DNA from: Gammaproteobacteria bacterium
GTDB taxonomy: Bacteria; Pseudomonadota; Gammaproteobacteria; Natronospirales; REEB76
Length of the DNA: 33,564 nt
Direction of reading: 5' to 3'
Assembly: GCA_018971365.1 (NCBI GenBank)
Contig: JAGXAZ010000007.1
Location: forward strand, 1-33,564
Shown: in pieces, positions 8,015 to 19,587 of the stretch
How positions within the stretch are numbered: position 1 is the stretch's first letter
Layout of the letters: each line of letters begins with the position of its first letter
Notes under the pieces: model-generated
Told to the model about the DNA's origin: nothing
The model's database searches: none
The model's input: the letters and a program-made list of their open reading frames with translations, nothing else
Position numbers and translations under genes: made by a program

Positions 8015-8059
8015 GAAATAGTTGCGCGGCCAATCGGCATTATCCCATAGCCATACCAG

Positions 8060-8227
8060 AACCTATCTCAAAATCTTCTGCCCGTTCGTGTTGAGCGTAG
8101 CGGAAGCTCCGCGAAGTCGAAACTGGGAAAATCAGGGGTAACAACCCTTCGACTCCGCACCTGCGGCGCTACGCTCAGAGCCTGCCCCGGACTTGATCCG
8201 GGGGCGAAGAATATTTTGAGACAGCTC
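8060..8227. repeat. Palindromic element copy 1, with terminal inverted repeats (AACCTATCTCAAAAT / ATTTTGAGACAGCT)
   Basis: Imperfect TIRs read directly. Left arm, reverse-complemented, matches the right arm of a second element at 17764-17912 (TTCGCGGAGC...CAACACGAACGG...ATTTTGAGAT.GGTT). Confidence 0.8.
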
Positions 8228-8231
8228 CCCG

Positions 8232-8651
8232 TCACTCCGGGTGAAAATCTGCGCCCAACTTTGGCAAAAGCGTGGTTTTCAATTTAACGATCTCGGCGCT
8301 GTAGTACGGCCGCGGCGGAACTTTGCCCCAAACCGGCTGCGGCCAGGCGGCGTCGTGCGTGTAGCGCACGATGTGATGAATATGCAGTTGCGGAACCTGG
8401 TTGCCGAGCGCCGCGATATTGAGCTTGTCGGGCCTGAAACATTCGGTGAGCGCGCGCGACAGTTGCGCGGATTCTTCCCACAACTGTCGGCGGTCGGCGT
8501 CGTTGAGTTCGTGAATCTCGCGGACGTTTTCGCGTTCCGGCACCAGGATGAACCATGGATAATTTGCGTCATTCATGAGCATCAGCTGGCACAGCTCGAA
8601 GCGGCCGAACAGTAGCGTGTCTTTTTGGAGCTGTGAATGAAGCTGAAACAT
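8232..8651 (-). CDS. HIT family protein
   Basis: Histidine-triad motif QLHIHHIVRY; N-terminal region with FILVPERENVREIHEL. Confidence 0.9.
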   Translation of the reverse strand: MFQLHSQLQKDTLLFGRFELCQLMLMNDANYPWFILVPERENVREIHELNDADRRQLWEESAQLSRALTECFRPDKLNIAALGNQVPQLHIHHIVRYTHDAAWPQPVWGKVPPRPYYSAEIVKLKTTLLPKLGADFHPE

Positions 8652-17575: not shown

Positions 17576-17600
17576 CCGGATATGCCGCGGATGAAATACA

Positions 17601-17626
17601 ACAGGGCTCTGAGGAGCCCTGTTTTT
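17601..17626 (+). terminator. Rho-independent terminator of the S10 peptidase gene
   Basis: ACAGGGCTC-TGA-GGAGCCCTGT stem followed by TTTTTT. Confidence 0.88.
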
Positions 17627-17664
17627 TGTAACTTACGGCATCCAGCCAGACAAACATCCGAGAG

Positions 17665-17716
17665 AAATCCCCTCGCGCGCAAAGCGCCCCCCTTTGCAAC
17701 GGGGGTTGGGGGATTT
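17665..17716. repeat. C-rich/G-rich palindromic element, AAATCCCC...GCCCCCCTTTGCAACGGGGG...GGGGATTT
   Basis: Outer inverted repeat AAATCCCC/GGGGATTT. Core resembles GCCCCCCTTTTTCCAAAGGGGG in the ubiJ-ubiB gap. Confidence 0.65.
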
Positions 17717-17763
17717 CAAGAGCGCCGCGCAGTTACCGTCGTACATTTTGTTGGACGTTCTTG

Positions 17764-17912
17764 AAACCTGTCTCAAAATCCCTTTGCCCCGAGCGCAATG
17801 CGGCAAGCGCGAAGTCCAAGAGTATCAGAAAACGGGATTTCCGCTGTCGCAACTTCGCGGAGCAGCGCTCCACTACGTCCAACACGAACGGTTCGAAATT
17901 TTGAGATTGGTT
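17764..17912. repeat. Palindromic element copy 2, with terminal inverted repeats (AACCTGTCTCAAAAT / ATTTTGAGATTGGTT)
   Basis: TIRs read directly; homologous in inverted orientation to 8060-8227. Confidence 0.8.
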
Positions 17913-17916
17913 GCAG

Positions 17917-19587
17917 TCAATCCTTGGTGTCGGCCGCGAGCGTACGGCTGCGCCAGTGGCCCCAGATCAGGATCAGGAATCCGATACCCGCCACCACGCC
18001 GGCGGCCCACAAGGGCACACCCGGCCGGCCGAGCAGCAGCGCGCCGCTTATAATCAGGGCGCCGCCCGCCACCGCGTGATACACGTGACGCACGCGGTGA
18101 CGCACCGATTCACGCAGGCTCTTCAGCTCGGCGCTGTCCATGCCGACCCGCAGCTTGCCCTCGGACAATTGCTCCAGAATCGCGTTGACTCGGCCCGGGG
18201 TTTCCAGCACCAACTCGCGCAGCGCCGGCAGGTTGGCGCGCAGACGCCGCAGCGTGGCCTTGAGGCCCATCTGCTCCCGCACCCAGTCTTCCAGAAACGG
18301 CTTGGCGGTTTTCCACAAATCCAGATCCGGATACAGCTCACGGCCCACGCCCTCGATGTACAGCAGGGTTTTCTGCAGCAGCACCAGTTGCGGCTGCAGC
18401 GGCATGTTGAAACGCCGTGCGGTCTGAAACAACCGCAACAGCAGGTTGCCGAAGGAGATGTCCTTGAGCGGGCGGTTGAAGATCGGCTCGCACACCGTGC
18501 GAATGGCGCTTTCGAACTCGCTGACGCGTGTACCGGCCGGCACCCAACCGGAATCCACGTGCAGCTCGGCCACGCGCCGGTAGTCGTGGCGGAAGAATGC
18601 CAGGAAATTCTCCGCCAGATAGCGTTGATCACTCTCCGTGAGTGCGCCGACGATGCCGAAATCCACCGCCATGTAGCGCGGATGCTTCGGGTCGTGCACG
18701 TCCACGAAGATGTTGCCGGGGTGCATGTCGGCGTGAAAGAAATTGTGCTTGAACACCTGGGTGAAAAAGATTTCCACGCCGTTCTCGGCCAGCCGCAGCA
18801 TGTCGGTGCCGCGCGCCTTGAGCGTGGCCACGTCGCTCACCGGCACACCGTGAATGCGTTCCATCACCATGACGTTGCGCCGGATGAGTGGCCAGTAAAC
18901 CTCGGGGACATACAGCAGCTGCGAGCCCTCGAAATTGCGCTTGAGCTGCGCGGCATTCGCCGCTTCGCGCATCAGGTCGAGTTCGTCGAGGATGGTCTTC
19001 TCGTACTCGGCCACCACTTCGCGCGGCCGCAGCCGGCGCGATTCGTGCCAGTAGCGTTCCGCCAGCCCGGCCATCAAATACAGCAGTTCCAGGTCCGCGC
19101 GGATCACGCGTTCCACGTCCGGGCGCAGCACCTTGACGACGACGGCACGCTCGTCTTTGAGGCGTGCGGCATGCACCTGCGCGATGGACGCCGAGGCGAG
19201 CGGTGTTTCGCTGAATTCCTCGAACACTGCCGTGACCGGCTGGTCGAGCGCCTTTTCCACGATCAGGCGCGCTTCGCGGCCGGGGAACGGCGGCACCCGA
19301 TCCTGGAGCTTGGCGAGTTCGTCAGCGACATCGTGCGGCAGGAGGTCGCGGCGCGTGGACAGCATCTGGCCGAACTTCACAAACACCGGCCCGAGATCCT
19401 CGAGTGCGCGGCGAATGCGTATGCCGCGCGCGACATTACGGCGTCGCAGCCAGTAAAACGGAGAAACATAGATGAGGAAGCGGACCGGACGGAAGATATG
19501 CGCCGAGAGGATGATTTCATCCAGGCCGTGACGCGCCAGCACGAAGCTGATGCGCATAAGCCGCAGCGTCTGGCGCGGCGTGATCAT
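17917..19587 (-). CDS. ubiB: Ubiquinone biosynthesis regulatory protein kinase UbiB (ABC1/ADCK family)
   Basis: LGPVFVKFGQMLSTRRDLLP, ASASIAQVHAA, HNFFHADMHPGNIFV, AVDFGIVGAL; two C-terminal TM helices. Start moved to MITPRQTLRLMRI at 19587. Confidence 0.95.
   Translation of the reverse strand: MITPRQTLRLMRISFVLARHGLDEIILSAHIFRPVRFLIYVSPFYWLRRRNVARGIRIRRALEDLGPVFVKFGQMLSTRRDLLPHDVADELAKLQDRVPPFPGREARLIVEKALDQPVTAVFEEFSETPLASASIAQVHAARLKDERAVVVKVLRPDVERVIRADLELLYLMAGLAERYWHESRRLRPREVVAEYEKTILDELDLMREAANAAQLKRNFEGSQLLYVPEVYWPLIRRNVMVMERIHGVPVSDVATLKARGTDMLRLAENGVEIFFTQVFKHNFFHADMHPGNIFVDVHDPKHPRYMAVDFGIVGALTESDQRYLAENFLAFFRHDYRRVAELHVDSGWVPAGTRVSEFESAIRTVCEPIFNRPLKDISFGNLLLRLFQTARRFNMPLQPQLVLLQKTLLYIEGVGRELYPDLDLWKTAKPFLEDWVREQMGLKATLRRLRANLPALRELVLETPGRVNAILEQLSEGKLRVGMDSAELKSLRESVRHRVRHVYHAVAGGALIISGALLLGRPGVPLWAAGVVAGIGFLILIWGHWRSRTLAADTKD

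Follow-up and report, generated by a model that had tools for sequence, protein, structure and literature searches.

Two copies of a palindromic element lie in the window, by which we mean the whole stretch of 33,564 nucleotides that was analyzed, and each copy ends a few base pairs from the stop codon of a neighboring gene; the question is what kind of repeat this is and why it is found at the 3′ ends of genes. A sequence-only reading had described the pair as a non-autonomous, MITE-like or REP-like family and had taken its position to reflect either a targeting preference or a retained 3′-end function, such as a terminator or RNA stabilizer. The window is one entire contig of a 1.97-Mb draft genome in 193 contigs (80.7% complete), and the comparisons below were extended from this genome to the other species of its genus.

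Copy borders were set by alignment to the intact family end, GAACC...GGTTC, which shifted the borders read earlier (8060–8227 and 17764–17912) by 1 bp at one end of each copy. Copy 1 (169 bp; 8059–8227, forward strand) was aligned to intact sister-species members. Its left terminal inverted repeat (8059–8074, forward strand) is intact, reads GAACCTATCTCAAAAT and equals the end of an IS5-family element in sister genome G008; the right repeat (8213–8227, reverse strand) is decayed to GAGCTGTCTCAAAAT. Copy 2 (150 bp; 17764–17913, reverse strand) is inverted with respect to copy 1 and has the terminal inverted repeats AAACCTGTCTCAAAAT distal to the ubiB-like gene (17764–17779, forward strand) and CAACCAATCTCAAAAT adjoining it (17898–17913, reverse strand). 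The TGA stop of a HIT-domain gene (8232–8651, reverse strand; PF01230, E=4e-19) is 4 bp from copy 1, and that of the ubiB-like (ABC1 kinase) gene (17917–19587, reverse strand; PF03109, E=2e-79) is 3 bp from copy 2. The distance of 4 bp first given for both copies thus stands for copy 1 and becomes 3 bp for copy 2 when the ends are aligned consistently. In copy 1 the stop lies next to the right end; in copy 2, which is inverted, it lies next to the opposite one. HIT orthologues with and without the element terminate at nearly the same point.

The other neighbors of the window copies are genes for a NudC-like NUDIX hydrolase and an S10 peptidase. Copy 1 sits directly upstream of a block at 8040–8056 (GCATTATCCCATAGC; reverse, GCTATGGGATAATGC), which lies upstream of the NudC-like gene, is kept in all sister species and may be a promoter −10 region. 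The peptidase gene is followed, at 17600–17623, by a bidirectional terminator-like stem, AACAGGGCTC..GAGCCCTGTT, which is kept in G002, G003, G007 and G010.

Apart from the self-match, a search of the own genome with copy 1 returned copy 2 in reverse (75% over 73 bp, E=2.9e-7) plus one 37-bp internal fragment, and the 12-mer CTNTCTCAAAAT was present in the 1.97 Mb only in copies 1 and 2. The pair as first read, with terminal inverted repeats, shared internal blocks and opposite orientation, is real. The window copies have no coding capacity and, at 150–169 bp, fall within the size of MITEs (<~300 bp); as the sequence-only reading had it, there is no transposase within the elements or elsewhere in the window. 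The lack of further copies in the genome had been named as telling against a family. No full copies beyond these two were found in the own draft genome, which is incomplete, and many were found in sister species, where their placement relative to stop codons is not random.

In the sister species about 30 copies were recognizable, and the genus contains 24 independent sites. The two window copies belong, as decayed members, to a MITE family of this one genus, which was placed in the Natronospirales (Gammaproteobacteria) because of sister genome G008, whose contig with the left end of the insertion sequence belongs to Natronospirales bacterium MAG YP5.bin20. The copies are dispersed over the 24 sites, with empty orthologous sites in relatives. 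At HIT, the window species and G002 carry the element in one orientation and G003 carries it reversed; G001 and G008 have the empty site, and in G004 and G007 a different element is present. G002 also has the element at the ubiB site, and the element that G003 has there is decayed and expanded, with tandem expansion of a unit of ~23 bp, CCTGTCCTGAGCTTGTCGAAGGG (L272, 1847–1980; G003:C40). The HIT, ubiB and ispF sites are each filled in more than one species, and the window copies are old, having been inserted before the divergence from one sister species or more. Target duplications are retained in part: the HIT site of G002 keeps TG|GAACC...GGTTC|TG (gene strand), and matching TA/TA or TG/TG duplications flank 9 of 28 two-ended copies, mostly well-preserved ones. 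At many copies, both window copies included, the duplications are eroded.

A candidate source of transposase was found in the same genus. Four contigs of G008 break inside an element that starts with GAACCTATCTCAAAATCG, the same end as that of the MITE, and whose reverse frame ends in FAWLQWQRRLLVRWEYYSANFLGFVQLAAILILLKRF before a stop, the C-terminus of an IS5-family transposase (NF033580, E=4e-7); another G008 contig end carries the matching left end and a transposase N-terminus. A scan of the genome collection with this N-terminus returned 66 relatives, ~40 of which lie in complete elements of ~830 bp that have these ends and are flanked by TA; the hosts include Nitrospira, Bradyrhizobium and Gammaproteobacteria. 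A full transposase matches NF033580 with E=2e-64 and also matches PF13340 and PF01609. The terminal repeat GAACCTATCTCAAAAT is thus common to the MITE and to ~830-bp IS5-family elements, one of them in the same genus, and a 2-bp, TA-like target duplication is shared by both. Judged by length, 2-bp duplication and the NF033580 match, the partner would be an IS427-like member of the IS5 family. Since the window elements have the ends of an IS5-family insertion sequence and no transposase of their own, they are MITEs, which supports the non-autonomous class first assigned to them, and we infer that the family was mobilized in trans by an IS5-family transposase. The partner transposase was not detected in the own, incomplete genome; relatives of the partner are present elsewhere in the genus.

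For analysis of insertion sites, 30 copies were delimited, 16 of them automatically from end matches and the others by eye, with borders that were not blind to the genes; genes were called using our own codon-usage script. After orthologous sites were merged and one without usable neighbors was dropped, 24 independent sites remained, all from one genus and few genomes. At 9/24 sites the element lies exactly inside a stop codon, with the target TA and the first G of the element forming TAG. At 7/24, HIT and ubiB among them, it starts 2–7 bp (within 8 bp) after the stop, and the remaining 8/24 lie elsewhere. The null comprised non-coding YTAR sites outside elements, of which 23 were in stops, 7 were ≤8 bp after a stop and 244 were elsewhere, giving expectations of 8.4% and 2.6% for the first two classes; the observed 9 and 7 of 24 correspond to P=8e-5 and P=2e-6. 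When elements were reshuffled within their own spacers, 6.9 sites in the two classes were expected vs 16 observed (P=5e-6). The preference for stop codons suggested from the two window copies is thus supported by the family. The equal distance of the two copies, which had been given meaning of its own, is partly coincidence: spacings in the family range from within the stop to 7 bp, and a third of the sites lie farther away.

Genes truncated by the insertion could give the appearance of in-stop sites. The last 180 bp of 14 genes were therefore searched across all genomes of the genus and their ends compared. Element-free orthologues share the end position of eight of the nine in-stop genes, their own stop being TAG, TAA or TGA; the exception, ispF, has lost about three codons. 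Judged by these ends, truncation does not account for eight of the nine in-stop sites, and the element-free orthologues add to the support for a stop-codon preference.

One account of such sites is tolerance: elements would insert at random over CTAG-like sites and survive where they do no harm, gene 3′ ends being least harmful. An in-stop insertion that re-forms TAG is neutral by construction, and no copy begins in the 8 bp before a start codon. A second MITE family of this genus, with the ends AGCGTCTAACAAAATG and unrelated to the present one, also occupies TAA/TAG stops, at about 5 of ~24 loci, and one PilZ-domain TTAG stop holds the second family in the own genome (L294, G000:C150) and the present family in G003 (L087, G003:C33). 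The excess persists, however, although the comparison consisted of non-coding sites only, and positions 9–30 bp after a stop, about equally harmless, hold 3 sites vs 7 at 2–8 bp. Tolerance by itself is a plausible account, if one that we hold to be less than probable. The ends alone do not give the bias, since elements of G032, from another family, have the same ends with another interior and lie mostly outside stops (2 of ~19 loci inside).

The second family occurs several times in the own genome, and its ends are also those of another IS5-family insertion sequence, present in G001 and G008. A remnant of it, with ends near AGCGTCTAACAAAATG and an uncertain left border, lies directly beside copy 2 at ~17637–17759 of the window.

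The interior of the element consists of two inverted hairpins, each with a variable outer stem, GAGCGTA, a variable inner stem, GAAGTCGA and the other side of the outer stem. Copy 1 contains module 1 at 8085–8128 (forward strand; covariance model R1, 51 bits) and the inverted module 2 at 8141–8184 (reverse strand; 57.9 bits), both of which were among the 23 sequences used for the model. The module of copy 2 at 17783–17826 (forward strand) was outside the model set and scored 28.4 bits (E=9e-7); the second, decayed module at 17841–17888 (reverse strand) scored weakly (11.5 bits, E=0.18) and was assigned by position and by matches to intact copies. Among the 23 aligned modules, 88.9% of cells pair vs 76% in shuffles, and stems contain 32 double changes vs 8.4 in shuffles, a comparison inflated by relatedness and made on modules picked by their loop motif. 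Slid controls, which preserve relatedness, all collapse, and the loop motif leaves the stems unfixed. Hairpins without MITE ends are also found elsewhere in the genus. The model had no match in 359 kb around copies of the insertion sequence in other genera and G032 elements, and Rfam returned nothing at gathering threshold across the window and nothing up to E=1 around either copy. The palindrome GCCTGCCCCGGACTTGATCCGGGGGCG, at 8179–8207 inside copy 1, occurs apart from the element in G001 (L111, L112) and on another contig of the own genome (L113), and therefore looks like a separate repeat module.

A rival account is retention for function: the family would land in many non-coding places, and 3′-end copies would be kept because the transcribed pair of hairpins shields or adjusts the end of the mRNA or slows ribosomes at the stop. 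The stems covary around a fixed internal loop while slid controls collapse, copy 1 folds strongly (z=-5.4), the HIT, ubiB and ispF sites are filled in several species, and REPs near stops are reported to stall ribosomes (PMC12306157); the 2–8 bp post-stop excess is also hard to derive from target choice alone. Against these points, some of the best-preserved copies (L096, L102 and L103) already lie in stops, as target choice predicts, the fold of copy 2 is only moderate (z=-2.2), members of the family differ freely in length and content, and the interior is inverted or rearranged in G003 at both shared sites, HIT and ubiB. Template-switch correction of imperfect palindromes could mimic part of the covariation. 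Copies near stops and copies farther away showed no difference in the decay of their ends (P=0.42). Retention for function as the source of the pattern is thus possible but rather doubtful.

A strong hairpin directly after a stop codon could also be a mobile intrinsic transcription terminator, one of the 3′-end functions first proposed. No T-tract follows the hairpins, a scan of both copies gave no terminator-like site, and the terminator-like stem at 17600–17623 is not part of copy 2, in whose absence it is also conserved. The HIT and NudC-like genes are co-directional with a short spacer, and termination between them would therefore be costly. The terminator candidate was rejected, as neither copy has a GC-rich hairpin with a T-tract, and we regard a terminator family as very unlikely.

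The other class first proposed, a REP-like repeat, would here be a REPIN moved by a RAYT (IS200/IS605-like) transposase. Each element does contain two inverted hairpins, hairpins are also found alone, and RAYT-like genes are present in the genus. The module was in the flanks of 0/21 RAYT-like loci in the genus, however, a search of the own genome gave no RAYT-like gene, and in its ends and 2-bp duplications the repeat is of the DDE-element type. A RAYT link was abandoned for the element as a whole, for which it is extremely improbable; the interior may have a REPIN/RAYT origin.

We therefore favor, as the probable explanation, a MITE family moved in trans by IS427-like IS5 transposases and placed in or just after stop codons beyond chance. 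IS5-family, IS427-like transposases would recognize the MITE ends in trans and insert the element at CTAG-like sites, duplicating 2 bp (TA-like) of the target. TAG and TAA stop codons contain such sites, and, because the outermost base of the element is G, insertion there re-forms TAG and leaves the host protein unchanged, so that stop codons would be a harmless target with a junction that restores TAG. The stop-codon excess would then reflect target choice together with harmlessness. The excess 2–8 bp downstream of stops goes beyond the stop-codon rule alone and needs another targeting cue or 3′-end retention. A more far-reaching version, in which the element is a mobile, ready-made 3′ UTR that seeks out the 3′ ends of genes and, through a selected module of two hairpins, confers common post-transcriptional control on many genes with proteins unchanged, appears unlikely.

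The family provides a specific case, open to checking, of a stop codon acting as a safe harbor for an element moved by a DDE transposase, with the target motif within TAG/TAA and the codon restored by the first base of the element, which would explain the spread of such repeats in a gene-dense genome. Covarying hairpins with a fixed internal loop raise the question of whether a DNA parasite has turned into a shared 3′-end regulatory part.

Among known systems, the partner elements resemble the IS427 group in length (~830 bp), short inverted repeats, TA duplication and IS5-family DDE transposase; IS1248 and ISPpa2 of this group are 832 bp with 2-bp duplications (PMC3281130). Several members of the group have two overlapping frames and a frameshift, whereas the partners examined mostly have one open frame, and the window element is free of genes. 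In Pseudomonas syringae, MITEPsy1 is likewise a short, IS5-related MITE and inserts after CTAG or YTAA, but it is 100 bp, has another end sequence and makes a 4-bp duplication; in the parts of that report consulted, no stop-codon association was found (PMC3189936). No IS5-type MITE with a comparable stop-codon bias was found in the literature searched, which does not prove its absence, and the exact palindrome strings had no match there. ERIC and YPAL of enterobacteria (127–168 bp) have long hairpins, are co-transcribed with neighboring genes and are thought to affect mRNA stability, but differ in ends and sequence, and YPAL lacks TA termini and has duplications of 3–26 bp (PMC2229807). The termini of GTAG-tagged REPs, also hairpin repeats, often supply the TAG stop of the flanking gene, but these are 20–40 bp and RAYT-associated, whereas the window family has no RAYT link (PMC3733652). 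For E. coli REPs lying up to 15 nt from a stop, stalling or slowing of ribosomes has been reported (PMC12306157). In principle, therefore, repeats that supply a stop codon or lie next to one have precedents.
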